From IMG/VR virus record IMGVR_UViG_3300038678_000114, positions 1 through 36,495 of that record: DNA of 36,495 nucleotides; one strand, written 5' to 3'. The notes under the pieces are model-generated. The model searched no databases. It saw only the letters and a list, made by a program, of their open reading frames with translations, and had not been told where the DNA came from. Positions 4,519-30,268 of the stretch are shown here, piece after piece. Within the stretch, counting starts at the first letter, position 1, and each line of letters opens with the position of its first letter. The stretch comes from a virus. A program made the translations under genes and the position numbers.

Positions 4519-5654
4519 TATTGTATATTTGAATTGTTAGTATCCTTCATTTCAAGCGGTACTATCTCAAGATCACTGAGTCCAAATATTGTATTCTCTA
4601 TAAAACTGTTGAAAACCCTTTGAACCTTGGTTCTGTCTGCTTCAGTATCAGCATTTTTATAGTTAAATGCGTCATTGAATGAGGCTTGATTAAACATACC
4701 ACTACTAGAAACGCCTAATAATATTGGAGGCATTCTGTATTCTTTAAAAATAGACGACTCAGCGTGTTCATTTTGATTGGTGAAAAGCTGATCAACATTT
4801 GTAGGTGAAAGAGATTCAACCATGGTAAACGGCTTCATTTCTCCTGTCACGCTTACTGGAACATTTACTACAACTGATGATCCTGCCTTATCTGCTCCGT
4901 GTAGCTTACCTATTTCATCGCTTAAATTTTTGTTGTTTTTTACGCCTTCTTCACCTTGTAATAAAGATGGGTTTTTGATAATGGTAGTTCCTGAAAAACC
5001 ATTCTTGATATTTGCGTTGGAGAATACCTGAGAATCACTTTCAAAATTGGCCGATACTTTAGATGCCTGTAAAAATGACTCTGGATATATACCTCCATCG
5101 TGTGCGAAGTATAGAATAGTACCTAAAAAATTGTCAAATCCTCCCGATTTTTCTATCTGTATTTTTAATCTATCAGGATTATAAAGAAATATATCTATAT
5201 CCTCGTCAAAAAATCTTTGCCCGTGTACCCAATTGCCGAACCTAACTTTCCAGAAAGTGTTTAATTTCCTAATGAATTCGAAATCTGCATTGAATATCTC
5301 AATTATTTCACCTAGTAGATTGTAATTGAAATGTAATGCAAAACCCCCAAATTCGGAATAGTCACCAACGGCTTTGTTAAGGATGTCATTTAGAGTTTCG
5401 TTGTCACGATTTACAACAATGTCCGCTTGATCCCCAAAACCTAGACCGAAGACAAAATCACGCAATCTTCTAACACAGCCTTTAGCCGTTGGGCTATTCC
5501 TTATAGCTGCTAATGTTCTATTTGGGTATAGGTTGTCAATACCGTAAGGAATGATTTCCTGACCGTCCTGACTAAAAACTAAGGAAGGCAATACATCAAT
5601 TTTTAACTGATTGATGACTGCCTTCGCTGATAATTGCTCGTTATGTTCAGCCAT
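4518..5654 (-). CDS. Phage portal protein
   Basis: 378 residues. Recognisable features are an N-terminal segment around YGIDNLYPNRTLAAIRNSP, a clip/stem region, and the C-terminal signature FKEYRMPPILLGV...FNQASFNDAFNY followed by a helical KVQRVFNSFIENTIFG. The phrase 'R-MPP-LLG' before an asparagine/alanine-rich helix is typical of portals of the HK97/lambda type. The dodecameric portal sits at the capsid vertex and is the DNA channel for the terminase. The gene lies downstream of the capsid and tail-tube genes rather than directly after the terminase, which is unusual. Confidence 0.85.
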   Translation of the reverse strand: MAEHNEQLSAKAVINQLKIDVLPSLVFSQDGQEIIPYGIDNLYPNRTLAAIRNSPTAKGCVRRLRDFVFGLGFGDQADIVVNRDNETLNDILNKAVGDYSEFGGFALHFNYNLLGEIIEIFNADFEFIRKLNTFWKVRFGNWVHGQRFFDEDIDIFLYNPDRLKIQIEKSGGFDNFLGTILYFAHDGGIYPESFLQASKVSANFESDSQVFSNANIKNGFSGTTIIKNPSLLQGEEGVKNNKNLSDEIGKLHGADKAGSSVVVNVPVSVTGEMKPFTMVESLSPTNVDQLFTNQNEHAESSIFKEYRMPPILLGVSSSGMFNQASFNDAFNYKNADTEADRTKVQRVFNSFIENTIFGLSDLEIVPLEMKDTNNSNIQ

Positions 5655-5666
5655 TTAGACTACATT

Positions 5667-6041
5667 TTATTTGTCCTCTGGTTTGTCCTCTCCAAGTCCT
5701 ACAGCATTTTTAACCGTGTCGATTATACTTCCTGCGGCCTTTGGAATAGCTGCTCCTTTTCTATCAGTCAACCAATGTTTTTTGGCCTTAGTGTCGAATC
5801 TACTAAGCTGATCAATAGTCAAGCATACATCCTTGTGGAGCTGCATTTTAACGCCTCCGATGTTTAGGTTTCGCCAAGTTGCCTGATCAAATTCTTTTTG
5901 CTCCTTACCTTTCAAGTAAGTTTTAGTCTTATTGAAATGAGCGTTTTTCACAAAATAGCTAGTCTTTTGATCTTCTGCTATTTCTGGTACTACAGGCGTG
6001 AACTGTTCACGTGCTGATTTAGATTTACTTTCTACTGACAT
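5667..6041 (-). CDS. Hypothetical structural-cluster protein, 124 aa
   Basis: Basic and hydrophilic N-terminus (MSVESKSKSAREQFTPVVPE). The middle contains TWRNLNIGGVKMQLHKDVCLT and the tail is flexible and acidic (GLGEDKPEDK). No membrane or catalytic motif. It lies between a 49-residue gene and the portal, separated by 12 bases, within the head/tail operon. Function unknown; a minor head or connector protein is possible. Confidence 0.7.
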   Translation of the reverse strand: MSVESKSKSAREQFTPVVPEIAEDQKTSYFVKNAHFNKTKTYLKGKEQKEFDQATWRNLNIGGVKMQLHKDVCLTIDQLSRFDTKAKKHWLTDRKGAAIPKAAGSIIDTVKNAVGLGEDKPEDK

Positions 6042-18309: not shown

Positions 18310-18324
18310 ATCTATAGTTTATTT

Positions 18325-18377
18325 ATAACAGCTCCTAAAACGCCATACTAACGTACAGGCGTTTAGCCGCGTGTTAT
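18325..18377. repeat. 53-bp attC-like inverted-repeat element, copy E (identical to 25686-25738)
   Basis: Plus-strand layout: ATAACA, five-base spacer, TAAAACGCC, 13-base loop, GGCGTTTA, six-base spacer, TGTTAT. The outer arms are 6 bp. The inner stem is 8 bp with one extra A on one arm, and the spacers between do not pair. This is the R box, unpaired spacer, L box with extrahelical base, loop order of folded attC sites. It lies between two early genes and matches copy D over all 53 bases but not one base beyond. Confidence 0.7.
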
Positions 18378-18386
18378 CTACAACAC

Positions 18387-18578
18387 TCATTTAGTGCTTT
18401 TAATAATCTTTGCAAACCCATTTACTTCTGTTACTACAAAAGTGTACTTTTTAGGCAATACAAATTCTTTGTTCACTTCTGCAAACTCCTGTATTTTGCT
18501 CCTGATCTTATTTGTCTCATAGGAACATAATCTTCCTTCTATGTAAGGCAATCCATTTTTAACTTCTATTTTTATCAT
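18387..18578 (-). CDS. Hypothetical protein, 63 aa
   Basis: Starts MIKIEVKNGLPYIEGRLCSY; short beta strands surround a central helix (KIRSKIQEFAEVNKEFVLP). No known domain. The stop lies ten bases upstream (in transcription sense) of the 53-bp attC-like element, the expected position for a cassette gene relative to its attC. A small imperfect hairpin (18608-18642) precedes it. Confidence 0.6.
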   Translation of the reverse strand: MIKIEVKNGLPYIEGRLCSYETNKIRSKIQEFAEVNKEFVLPKKYTFVVTEVNGFAKIIKSTK

Positions 18579-18652
18579 AATTCAGTCGTTTAGTTCCGTG
18601 ATGTAGATAACATTATGTATCAATCCATAAAAAACGGATGATACAAAAGCCA

Positions 18653-25653: not shown

Positions 25654-25685
25654 ATTATTTTACATTTCGAGCATTAAAACGCTCG

Positions 25686-25738
25686 ATAACAGCTCCTAAA
25701 ACGCCATACTAACGTACAGGCGTTTAGCCGCGTGTTAT
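25686..25738. repeat. 53-bp attC-like inverted-repeat element, copy D (identical to 18325-18377)
   Basis: Same 53 bases and same fold as copy E. The stop codon (TAA) of the zinc-ribbon gene at 25735 is formed by the first bases of the element on the minus strand, so the element follows its gene exactly as an attC follows its cassette ORF. Confidence 0.7.
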
Positions 25739-25947
25739 AAGGGCATTAAGTCCCCGTGTTTGTCGAGCATTTTTGCTATTCTGAAATTTTCATTTCCAAC
25801 AATAATCCCATAATAATCTTTTACCTCTTTAGCACTCATATCTGTAATATCATCTCCGCCACATTCTGGGCAGCTATCGTTAAAATCATAAGTATAGCCA
25901 CAATCAGTAAAATTGCAATGATTATAGTGTCCTGTAAATTCATTCAT
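25735..25947 (-). CDS. Small zinc-ribbon protein, 70 aa
   Basis: Starts MNEFTGHYNHCNFTDCGYTY and continues DFNDSCPECGGDDITDMSAK. Four cysteines in two pairs indicate a zinc ribbon. A short helical C-terminus (KDYYGIIVGNENFRIAKML) follows. Its stop lies inside attC-like copy D, and element C lies just upstream of its start. Unknown function; cassette-like context. Confidence 0.68.
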   Translation of the reverse strand: MNEFTGHYNHCNFTDCGYTYDFNDSCPECGGDDITDMSAKEVKDYYGIIVGNENFRIAKMLDKHGDLMPL

Positions 25948-25955
25948 AATTTAAC

Positions 25956-26052
25956 GCCCTATAACACTAAATAAAATCAAGAGGGCTTGTAAGCTCAATC
26001 TTATCCGAGGGTTCATAGCATTGCCCTCCTGCTTTTATTCTAAACGTTAGGC
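25956..26052. repeat. attC-like inverted-repeat element C
   Basis: The 17-bp arms at 25970-25986 and 26023-26039 match at 15 of 17 positions. Just outside are GCCCTATAAC (25956-25965) and GTTAGGC (26046-26052); the latter fits the attC core GTTRRRY, and its partner on the minus strand is GCCTAAC (RYYYAAC). It separates the 26059 gene from the 25735 gene, both in the same orientation. Confidence 0.55.
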
Positions 26053-26058
26053 TTAATA

Positions 26059-26445
26059 CTAGTGTTTTCTTGCAACGGCTACACCATTATCAATTAAATT
26101 AAAAATATCATATTCGTTATCTATTAGACACTTCATATCATTAACAGTTATTCTTCCGTTCTCAATTCCTCTTTTCAAATGCTCTTCATCAATCCACCCA
26201 AGTTCTACGGCTTCTTCTTTTGTTAATTCTTCGGTGTCTCTTAAAATTAATTTTGCTCCATTTAAAGAGTATGGGTAAAACCCGTTATCCATATCTAAAT
26301 AGCTGTTTCCATAAAACAAATCAGACTCTGTAAAATCAATTTGATTAATAGTTGTTTCAAATTCGCCTTGATTTTTAGATGTTATTATTTTAACTCCTTT
26401 TGCTCCAAGTCCGTAAGCAACAATGTTTGTGTGTTCTAATTTCAT
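26059..26445 (-). CDS. Hypothetical cassette-like protein, 128 aa
   Basis: I place the start at 26445 (MKLEHTNIVAYGLGAKGVKI) because the A-rich leader AAATAAAATT lies directly before it and it does not overlap the upstream gene; an ATG at 26487 is possible. The product is acidic, with NGFYPYSLNGAKLILRDTEE and a C-terminal helical part rich in N and D. Unknown function; followed by attC-like element C. Confidence 0.65.
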   Translation of the reverse strand: MKLEHTNIVAYGLGAKGVKIITSKNQGEFETTINQIDFTESDLFYGNSYLDMDNGFYPYSLNGAKLILRDTEELTKEEAVELGWIDEEHLKRGIENGRITVNDMKCLIDNEYDIFNLIDNGVAVARKH

Positions 26446-26467
26446 AATTTTATTTGTTTGTTTAATG

Positions 26468-26767
26468 TTAAAATTCAGCACTTTCATCAGTCTGCCTTAA
26501 TAATCTTGCGAATACCTCCACAAATTTTTCCTTCTTGGATAGTTCGTGCTCTCCCATCGCATCTAAAATAATGTGTATTTTCTCGTGGTAAAATGTGTCC
26601 CTGATCACACATTCGCTTATATCATCTCCTTTATATCTTCGGCATAAAGTAATTTGCGAGTCTGTAAAGCTACAATCTCCTAATACACCTTCATTGCTTA
26701 GTCTTGTGTCGTTATAATCAACATTTATAGTTGAGGCAAAGACATTAAATTTTTTAGGTATTTTCAT
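26468..26767 (-). CDS. Small zincin-like metallopeptidase, 99 aa
   Basis: Starting at 26767 (MKIPKKFNVFASTINVDYND) avoids the attC-like element that the longer frame from 26824 would translate. The active-site helix is VIRDTFYHEKIHIILDAMGE with HExxH (His61, Glu62, His65 in this numbering), followed by LSKKEKFVEVFARLLRQ, which supplies the third ligand. This is a known small phage zincin pattern; its substrate is unknown. It could act on host or defence proteins. Confidence 0.75.
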   Translation of the reverse strand: MKIPKKFNVFASTINVDYNDTRLSNEGVLGDCSFTDSQITLCRRYKGDDISECVIRDTFYHEKIHIILDAMGEHELSKKEKFVEVFARLLRQTDESAEF

Positions 26768-26793
26768 TTCAATTAATTTTAATCCGTACATAA

Positions 26794-26851
26794 GCCTAAC
26801 ACTAAATAAAGCTGCATTAAGCAACGCAGTTTATTAATCTCGTTATGGGGC
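26794..26851. repeat. attC-like inverted-repeat element B
   Basis: Plus strand: GCCTAAC (26794-26800, a perfect RYYYAAC), then AATAAAGCTGC (26805-26815) and GCAGTTTATT (26826-26835), which pair with one extra G on one arm, then GTTATGGGGC (26842-26851). The stop codon of the 26853 gene lies one base before the element. Left-end bases GCCTAAC-ACTAAATAAA resemble those of element C and of the partial copy at 27236. Confidence 0.6.
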
Positions 26852-26852
26852 A

Positions 26853-27407
26853 TTAACCCGGCCCGTCAAAAAGGTCAACTTTCCTTGTCTGCTCTTCAAT
26901 TTTTATTAAAGTAGTTTTAATGTGCCTTAATTCAGTTACAAAATCATTTATATCATATTCACTATCAAGCTTTTTAAACTCTCTAACTTCAACTATTTCA
27001 CCTGCCCCCATAATTCCAGTACCTTCGTAATTATTTCCTCTCGGGTCAACTCCTTTAATAAAAGCTTCACCTGTTACTTTTTCTGCCCAGCTCTCAAATT
27101 CCCACTCAATTACTTTTCTGGTTTTTAACAGCCAATGTCTAACATTTTCCCATTGCTCAAATGTTTCAGGGTCTAAACTTTGCTCACACATAGCCTGTAT
27201 TTTCTCAATGGCTGAAAAATCATTATACTTAAAACGCCCCATAACACTAAATAAATCAATATTATTAAACTTATGCTCGTGCTGTTTAATAGCCACATTT
27301 GCTATTAGCTCAGGTGTCCATTCGGGTTTTAAATAACCCTCTCTATGGTCTTCGTAATGCTTAATAAATTCAATTATGGCTTCTTTTATTTTCGCTTTCA
27401 TAATCAT
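26853..27407 (-). CDS. Hypothetical cassette-like protein, 184 aa, with an attC-like end embedded in the ORF
   Basis: Starts MIMKAKIKEAIIEFIKHYED. An internal segment around residue 56 is written by a partial attC-like end (27236-27257), and Met56 at 27242 (MGRFKYNDFSAIEKIQAMCE) would be the natural start of a cassette gene. The first 55 codons may be a separate gene fused by recombination, or a real N-terminus. The C-terminal half has HWLLKTRKVIEWEFESWAEK and a charged end. No family recognised. Confidence 0.6.
   Translation of the reverse strand: MIMKAKIKEAIIEFIKHYEDHREGYLKPEWTPELIANVAIKQHEHKFNNIDLFSVMGRFKYNDFSAIEKIQAMCEQSLDPETFEQWENVRHWLLKTRKVIEWEFESWAEKVTGEAFIKGVDPRGNNYEGTGIMGAGEIVEVREFKKLDSEYDINDFVTELRHIKTTLIKIEEQTRKVDLFDGPG
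27236..27257. repeat. Partial attC-like end inside the 26853-27407 ORF
   Basis: The plus strand reads GCCCCATAAC then ACTAAATAAATC, nearly the left end of elements B and C (GCC..TAAC-ACTAAATAAA). No matching right half follows within 60 bases, so only one end is present. Confidence 0.45.
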
Positions 27408-27460
27408 TATCTGTTAAATTCGTTTAATTACATTGTTTATCTTCACCATTACCAATAATG

Positions 27461-27898
27461 CTACCTATCAGTTTTATATTCAAGTTCCTCATTCATAAAC
27501 GCAAAAAATAAATTCTGCAATTCGTGAACATATCTTAAAGGCTCTAATATTAAGTCAGAAAATTGGCTTTTAAGTGTTGCCACTATTTCACTTCCGTATA
27601 TTTCAAAATGCAATTCTGCTTTCATTTTTGGTAGTGGTAGCCAATAAGGTGTTAATCCATTATGTCTTACTCCTAAGTATTTCAATTGCTCAGGGTTTAA
27701 TTGTATTGGCTTAATATCTTTGTAATATTCTCCTGTGTGAAATCCTTTAAATTGCACCACATCAGTTTTTAGTTCACTTATTTCAAACACCTTATTTTTA
27801 TCACCCAATCCTTCTGAATGTAGAGCCGTTGGTTCAATTGTCACCAAGTTTCCTATTCTAAATTTTTTTGCTTCCATTTTTCTGTTATTAAAATTCAT
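27461..27898 (-). CDS. Conserved Bacteroidota phage protein of unknown function, 145 aa
   Basis: Carries the layout of a family widespread in Bacteroidota and their phages: KKFRIGNLVTIEP near the start, PIQLNPEQLKYLGVRHNGLT in the middle, and YVHELQNLFFAFMNEELEY at the end. The likely start is Met8 at 27877 (MEAKKFRIGN). It lies between attC-like element A and a 53-base gap. Function unknown; it is the clearest Bacteroidota marker in the accessory operon. Confidence 0.8.
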   Translation of the reverse strand: MNFNNRKMEAKKFRIGNLVTIEPTALHSEGLGDKNKVFEISELKTDVVQFKGFHTGEYYKDIKPIQLNPEQLKYLGVRHNGLTPYWLPLPKMKAELHFEIYGSEIVATLKSQFSDLILEPLRYVHELQNLFFAFMNEELEYKTDR

Positions 27899-27912
27899 TT
27901 ATAATTAACCGC

Positions 27913-27986
27913 ACATATTGGTAACAATGTATAAAATGCAGTTTTGATAAAAACAAAACCGACATCTTATACTCAACGTTAGGGCT
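27913..27986. repeat. attC-like inverted-repeat element A
   Basis: Imperfect arms at 27929-27946 (GTATAAAATGCAGTTTTG) and 27954-27972 pair over most of their length around a 7-base loop. GTAAC lies at 27921-27925 and GTTAGGGC at 27978-27985. The stop codon of the 59-residue gene falls at its edge (27986-27988). The outer boxes pair only over the TAAC/GTTA core, so this is the weakest of the set. Confidence 0.45.
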
Positions 27987-28165
27987 TAATCGCCTGCATT
28001 AACCACTGATATCGCTGCATCTGAAGCGATCTTGAAACCTCTTTTAAACACCTCTATACTAAGATCACTTATTTTTGATTCTATTAGTATGATCGTTGCC
28101 ATATTATCAGTTAATTCTAACAGTTCGTTTCTAATCTCAAGTTTAATTTGGTCTTCTGTTTTCAT
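27986..28165 (-). CDS. Small early protein, 59 aa
   Basis: ATG at 28165 overlaps the stop of the upstream gene (ATGA) and opens MKTEDQIKLEIRNELLELTD, NMATIILIESKISDLSIEVF, then KRGFKIASDAAISVVNAGD, ending in TAA at the edge of element A. The whole is a regular helical pattern. It is too short for most gene callers, but the coupling and length of open frame support it. Confidence 0.7.
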   Translation of the reverse strand: MKTEDQIKLEIRNELLELTDNMATIILIESKISDLSIEVFKRGFKIASDAAISVVNAGD

Positions 28166-29906: not shown

Positions 29907-30268
29907 TTAATTTTGTCGTTTATTTTATTCATCAACCCTTTCATATCTTCCATTAATCCAGTCTGTTTTGATTCAATTTCAATGAATTTTCCATTTGATT
30001 CAATGAATGCAATTACTAGCTTTTTAATTGTGAACCCCATTGCAATGGTTAACCCGATTAAAAATACTATAAAAATTCCACTCAATCCATAATCATTTGC
30101 AAGGTGATTAGAGGCATCTGTAACGGCTCCAGTGGTTGATTCTAATACTCCCTGTTGTTGACTAGACATATATGAGAATGATTTAAACGCCACAAAATTT
30201 AGTATTAACACCATAAACAATATTAATAATCTCTTAAATTGCTTTTTTACTCTTTTTTGTTTTTGCAT
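29903..30268 (-). CDS. Putative holin, two membrane segments, 121 aa
   Basis: The N-terminus is basic (MQKQKRVKKQFKR), followed by a hydrophobic segment at about 13-30, a polar part, a second hydrophobic segment at about 62-81 (LSGIFIVFLIGLTIAMGFTI) and an amphipathic charged tail. Size, topology and position directly before the endolysin fit a holin, although phage holins are sequence-diverse and I cannot name a family. Confidence 0.6.
   Translation of the reverse strand: MQKQKRVKKQFKRLLILFMVLILNFVAFKSFSYMSSQQQGVLESTTGAVTDASNHLANDYGLSGIFIVFLIGLTIAMGFTIKKLVIAFIESNGKFIEIESKQTGLMEDMKGLMNKINDKIK

Follow-up and report, generated by a model that had tools for sequence, protein, structure and literature searches.

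The window analysed here, the whole 36,495-bp stretch of a genome catalogued as a virus record, very probably carries a small array of integron-type cassettes in a phage without a recombinase of its own; the activity of the array was not measured. The array is a reversed, partly decayed CALIN-like passenger, and three of its units retain matching cores: gene 6, genes 5 and 4 together, and the C-terminal part of gene 3.

Phage contig and attC-like sites

The window has a 127-bp direct terminal repeat, encodes a portal, a head protease, a terminase and a tape measure protein, and has nearly all of its genes on the minus strand. Because its terminase resembles those of Cellulophaga and Flavobacterium phages (32% identity), the phage probably infects a Bacteroidota host, a guess that rests on this resemblance. 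No gene for IntI or any other tyrosine recombinase is encoded in the window, in agreement with the initial annotation, which had noted the lack of an integron integrase. The motif CAATATTACTAAATTTTAGTAAC occurs in three copies (13153, 20523 and 25469), each located 5' of genes, and is a possible phage promoter or operator.

The initial annotation had described four hairpin elements, A to D, and a partial end among small genes, with an identical copy of D at 18325, GCCTAAC in B, GTTAGGC in C, and gene stops lying at or in the elements. All of these features are present, with refined coordinates. Site C (25959-26052, plus strand) has the R' core GTTAGGC, site B (26794-26848, plus) has the R'' core GCCTAAC and near-equal scanner scores on both strands, and site A (27919-27984, plus) has the R' core GTTAGGG. 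Site D (25684-25740), listed on the plus strand with its strand still undecided, is weak on its own; its 53-bp core is repeated without a change (53/53) in a second copy, D2 (18323-18379, strand unassigned). Half-site E (27236-27257, plus) is the R'' half of a truncated, C-like attC-like site and lies within ORF 26853-27407. The attC criterion of R'' (YAAC) and R' (GTTR) cores with an imperfect hairpin and unpaired spacers is met by A, B and C, and weakly by D. An attC site should also carry one or more extrahelical bases on its L'' arm. On the plus strand, the 5' arm of B and that of D contain a single extra base; C shows an extrahelical base on the minus-strand reading only, and A has a mismatch without a bulge. 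The bottom strand of an attC site is expected to fold better than the top strand. Folding the elements as DNA, a check that had been proposed, gives hairpins, and the minus strand is the better folder in A, B and C.

Sites were scored with an attC scanner whose training set of 30 attC arms came from class 1 integrons plus Vibrio, Shewanella and Tetrasphaera phage records and included no window sites. Its three best matches in the whole window are C (plus, 42.6), A (plus, 38.9) and B (minus, 38.3), whereas shuffled windows (n = 308) gave 0.019 matches per window at scores of at least 38 and none that reached the score of C. D and its copy score about 29-30 and are, taken alone, within chance range, since shuffled windows yield 1.6 matches each at 28.5 or above. 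In the Polaribacter phage P12002L, used as a control, the top match (30005-30059) lies between two methyltransferase genes; its identity with the experimentally tested attC is unconfirmed. Where viral contigs encode a true IntI, the matches adjoin the integrase, almost all on one strand, and in 272 kb of other phage DNA, the negative control, scores of at least 36 occur only in a contig with a truncated IntI. With A, B and C inside 2.1 kb and no integrase, the region qualifies as a CALIN, defined by two or more attC sites over a few kb without an integrase, an assignment that rests on this home-made scanner. An earlier ad hoc stem scanner was too permissive and was dropped. Two home-built covariance models (R1 and R2), made from known attC arms, found no match in the window, an outcome that the initial annotation had listed as part of its refuting condition. 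One of them also missed Vibrio and Shewanella attC sites, and with the other the P12002L site came no higher than fifth (E-value 3.9). Because both models fail on true attC sites, these null results are no evidence either way.

Cassette units with complementary cores

Within integron arrays, each cassette begins with sequence complementary to its own R'' end. The unit is accordingly defined here as the gene between two complementary cores and not as the hairpin alone, which corrects the initial annotation. Cassette 1 (25735-26046, plus by site polarity) comprises gene 6 (25735-25947, minus) and site C, with cores GTTATAAGGGC and GCCCTATAAC; this C-D pair reads GTTATA-GGGC, with one indel. Cassette 2 (26047-26842, plus) comprises genes 5 (26059-26487) and 4 (26468-26824), both on the minus strand, and site B, with cores GTTAGGCTTA and TAAGCCTAAC. 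Cassette 3 (26843-27257, plus) comprises the C-terminal part of gene 3 (minus) and the truncated E, with cores GTTATGGGGC and GCCCCATAAC. The probability that a random core pair in the window reaches the observed score is P = 0.00075. A possible extra cassette lies beside D2 (18374-18611, plus) and contains a 63-aa gene (18387-18578, minus): core TTATCTACA near D2 and GATGTAGATAAC at 18600 form a pair that has one mismatch, and a second hairpin was not identified.

The array is partly decayed, at E, A and D. A and D each lack a partner core; gene 1 (27986-28165, minus), whose stop codon lies at site A, has no complete core pair, and gene 2 (27461-27898, minus) belongs to phrog_10066. E stops short beyond its R'' half, and ORF 26853-27407 seems to fuse another N-terminus onto it, as a deletion would produce.

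The same core layout, 10 bp exact, then G/A, then TT, occurs in contig L118, where the outer flanks of adjacent sites pair across each gene in all six of six units. L118 is a phage (it has terminase, portal and virion genes), and its RuvC is 41% identical to that of the window.

Gene 4 is weakly SprT-like. Its 78% identical counterpart in phage G1 (28746-29045) has a phrog_23774 homologue as its neighbour; the window has that homologue next to D2, 8 kb from gene 4.

Cassette gain and loss in cultured relatives

Comparisons by terminase, by gene 2 and by DNA pattern turned up no close relative in the viral collection, a scan of genome contigs with gene 4 returned no match, and no relative is near enough to reveal an empty site in the window's own phage. 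Among related cultured phages, cassette units do appear to be mobile. The Flavobacterium phages mumin6-1 and mumin6-4 are 99.9% identical over the compared 9 kb and differ there by one 506-bp unit, with junctions GATAACGTTA|TGCAAC...gp008...CACCAAACGTTA|ACCGC versus GATAACGTTA|ACCGC, joined inside AACG|TTA. Phage filifjonk differs from mumin by one unit at GTAG|TTATAAG, an attI-like core in that no hairpin precedes it, and by a three-gene insertion at AACG|TTA; P12002S and P12002L differ at CAAACG|TTA, by a unit with a methyltransferase. Only about 7-8 bp, centred on the core, are shared at the junctions in mumin and filifjonk. The variable mumin gene, gp008, belongs to phrog_10066, as does window gene 2, and BLAST aligns just a short stretch of the two. 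The cassette criterion of complementary core ends with insertion inside G|TT is met by three window units, while exact indels at CG|TTA are seen in the relatives only. The paper on the mumin phages (PMC7077304) does not mention integrons or cassettes.

Sites directed against the genes

The window sites lie on the plus strand and the genes on the minus strand: A and C score best on plus, and B is assigned to plus because of its extrahelical G and an arm that it has in common with C and E. Cassettes were at first read as running with the genes; the mumin junctions overturned that reading, since there the canonical (A)CG|TTA in which the crossover falls is on the other strand from the genes. The criterion that the ORF follows the direction of the site is therefore not met in the window. 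This opposition is general in the group, with the ORF opposing the site in 81 of 82 intervals from 13 arrays, whereas in canonical arrays (n = 7, mainly AT-rich or annotated) the ORF runs along the site in 32 of 36 intervals and opposes it in four. An earlier direction control, mostly of GC-rich IntI loci, gave a ratio of 17:18 with spurious ORFs; it was uninformative and was replaced.

The integron-cassette reading of the initial annotation is thus upheld by the attC profile matches, the complementary cores and the exact gain and loss of units; it does not hold for direction, the sites being antisense, and the array is a decayed one.

A recombinase beside related arrays

L118 encodes a 267-aa tyrosine recombinase (5238-6041) that starts 53 bp past the last core. 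A scan with this protein yielded 58 loci with usable upstream DNA, in which strict core pairs number 78 in the 311 kb upstream of the recombinase versus 2 in about 998 kb of strand elsewhere. The last core lies repeatedly at -52/-53 from the recombinase start and is attI-like. L118 is the sole locus checked to be a phage, and some long contigs may be chromosomal. The protein scores 143 bits against TIGR02249 (cut-off 265) and is missing the IntI-specific patch, so it does not meet the test for IntI. In a phylogenetic tree, the L118-type clade (support 98/92) is placed next to phage integrases (97/95) and apart from IntI (100/99). That the L118-type recombinase acts on attC-like sites is inferred from its position alone. 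Leef_1 has two strict core pairs, Freya one imperfect pair and Ingeline none; the integrases of the latter two are sisters of the L118 type.

Loci L141-L220, like L118, have non-IntI tyrosine recombinases; attC-like arrays lie immediately upstream of them, and an attI-like core is some 52 bp away from the start codon. On a Chryseobacterium plasmid (L223, 7105-10045), core pairs lie beside a XerA-like recombinase and the ORFs run the same way as the sites, which may be a bacterial counterpart of the phage arrays. On a Flagellimonas plasmid (L222, 4020-6792), erm(F) and a dihydrofolate reductase gene adjoin a XerA-like recombinase, and core pairs were not found.

Proposed mechanism and alternatives

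Each cassette would consist of a phage gene or gene pair and one attC-like site, the minus strand of which would fold into a hairpin read by a tyrosine recombinase. Strand exchange would occur inside the core AACG|TTA on the plus strand, and the cassette could then be excised in circular form and integrate at a different core of this kind. Genes lying backward relative to the sites would be readable together with the phage's other leftward genes. The enzyme is inferred to be supplied in trans, either by the host or by a co-infecting phage, and to belong to the non-IntI recombinase family found beside such arrays elsewhere; the window would be mobilised in this way if at all. That the window's own sites are active is likewise an inference.

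On balance it is judged probable, if only modestly so, that Bacteroidota phages share a cassette economy separate from bacterial integrons, characterised jointly by a non-IntI tyrosine recombinase with an attI-like core some 52 bp away from its start, by attC-like sites, and by genes turned against the site and thereby read by phage transcription, and that the window is an enzyme-less passenger of it. The criterion for a complete integron, IntI and attI next to the array, is not met in the window, and strict membership of the integron family is not shown because in other phages the recombinases that adjoin arrays of this type are not IntI.

The enzyme could instead be the canonical IntI of a chromosomal integron in the host, with the phage sharing the cassettes of that host. 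This remains possible but is considered unlikely: the sites fit the general attC consensus, and IntI1 is able to recombine one P12002L site when assayed in E. coli (PMC9892861), but the recombinase adjoining the Bacteroidota-type arrays falls outside the IntI clade, and ORFs that oppose the site are unlike those of canonical arrays.

Doubtful to a greater degree is the idea that the sites are relics of one capture from a bacterial integron, now inert, and that the phages differ through homologous recombination. The decay at E, A and D would fit such a history, as would the lack of a recombinase in the window and of an annotated one in mumin6-1; the 7-8 bp shared at the core-centred junctions and the cores still matching in three window cassettes do not. 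The notion that the sites are ordinary phage intergenic hairpins (terminators, RNA processing sites or REP/MITE-like elements) resembling attC by chance, of which the initial annotation had kept the REP-like or phage-specific form as its alternative and which could draw on their position between small co-directional genes, the chance-level scores of D and its copy and the silence of the insensitive covariance models, has very little left in its favour, because such hairpins would not yield complementary cores for each gene or core-exact insertion boundaries in relatives, Rfam gave no match, and the complementarity of cores across genes largely refutes it.

Cargo and significance

In the related arrays (L118, 3221-3832 and 4458-5177; L137, L139 and L001), a Mom-like protein for DNA modification and several DNA methyltransferases are among the cassette cargo; in the cassettes screened with PADLOC, no defence genes were detected. 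The plating efficiency of some mumin-group phages has been linked to a missing methyltransferase (Nilsson et al. 2020, PMC7077304). Since methyltransferases are located in the arrays, cassette content may, by inference, affect host range.

The weight of the finding comes from the wider system to which the window points. If that system is real, some phages swap accessory genes, methyltransferases and Mom-like proteins among them, routinely by integron-style exchange and not only as rare passengers. Isolates one cassette apart would make the reaction and its enzyme directly testable.

Comparison with known systems

Phage CALINs have already been published with recombination data, including that of Polaribacter phage P12002L (Qi et al. 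2023, PMC9892861). P12002L, a flavobacterial phage, resembles the window in that attC-like sites lie among its genes while an integrase gene is absent, and its site at 30005-30059 has the same consensus and the same opposition to the genes. That study reported divergent site directions in P12002L but stated no general rule that polarity is reversed, and it described neither cassette turnover between isolates nor a platform with a non-IntI enzyme. Within the literature covered, which did not extend to preprints and most subscription papers, the reversed polarity rule, exact isolate turnover and the non-IntI platform had no precedent.

The L118 recombinase also matches NF040815, named 'site-specific tyrosine recombinase/integron integrase' (XerA-like), at 191 bits, below the curated cut-off of 220, and is 40-43% identical to proteins so named on flavobacterial plasmids. 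It differs in standing beside cassette arrays, and the window has no such gene.

Sedentary chromosomal integrons of Vibrio and Shewanella share with the window R''/R' cores, hairpins (with an extra base in one arm at some of the window sites), complementary cassette ends and arrays of similar sites. IntI is absent from the window, however, and ORFs, which run along the site polarity in those integrons, are opposed to it here.
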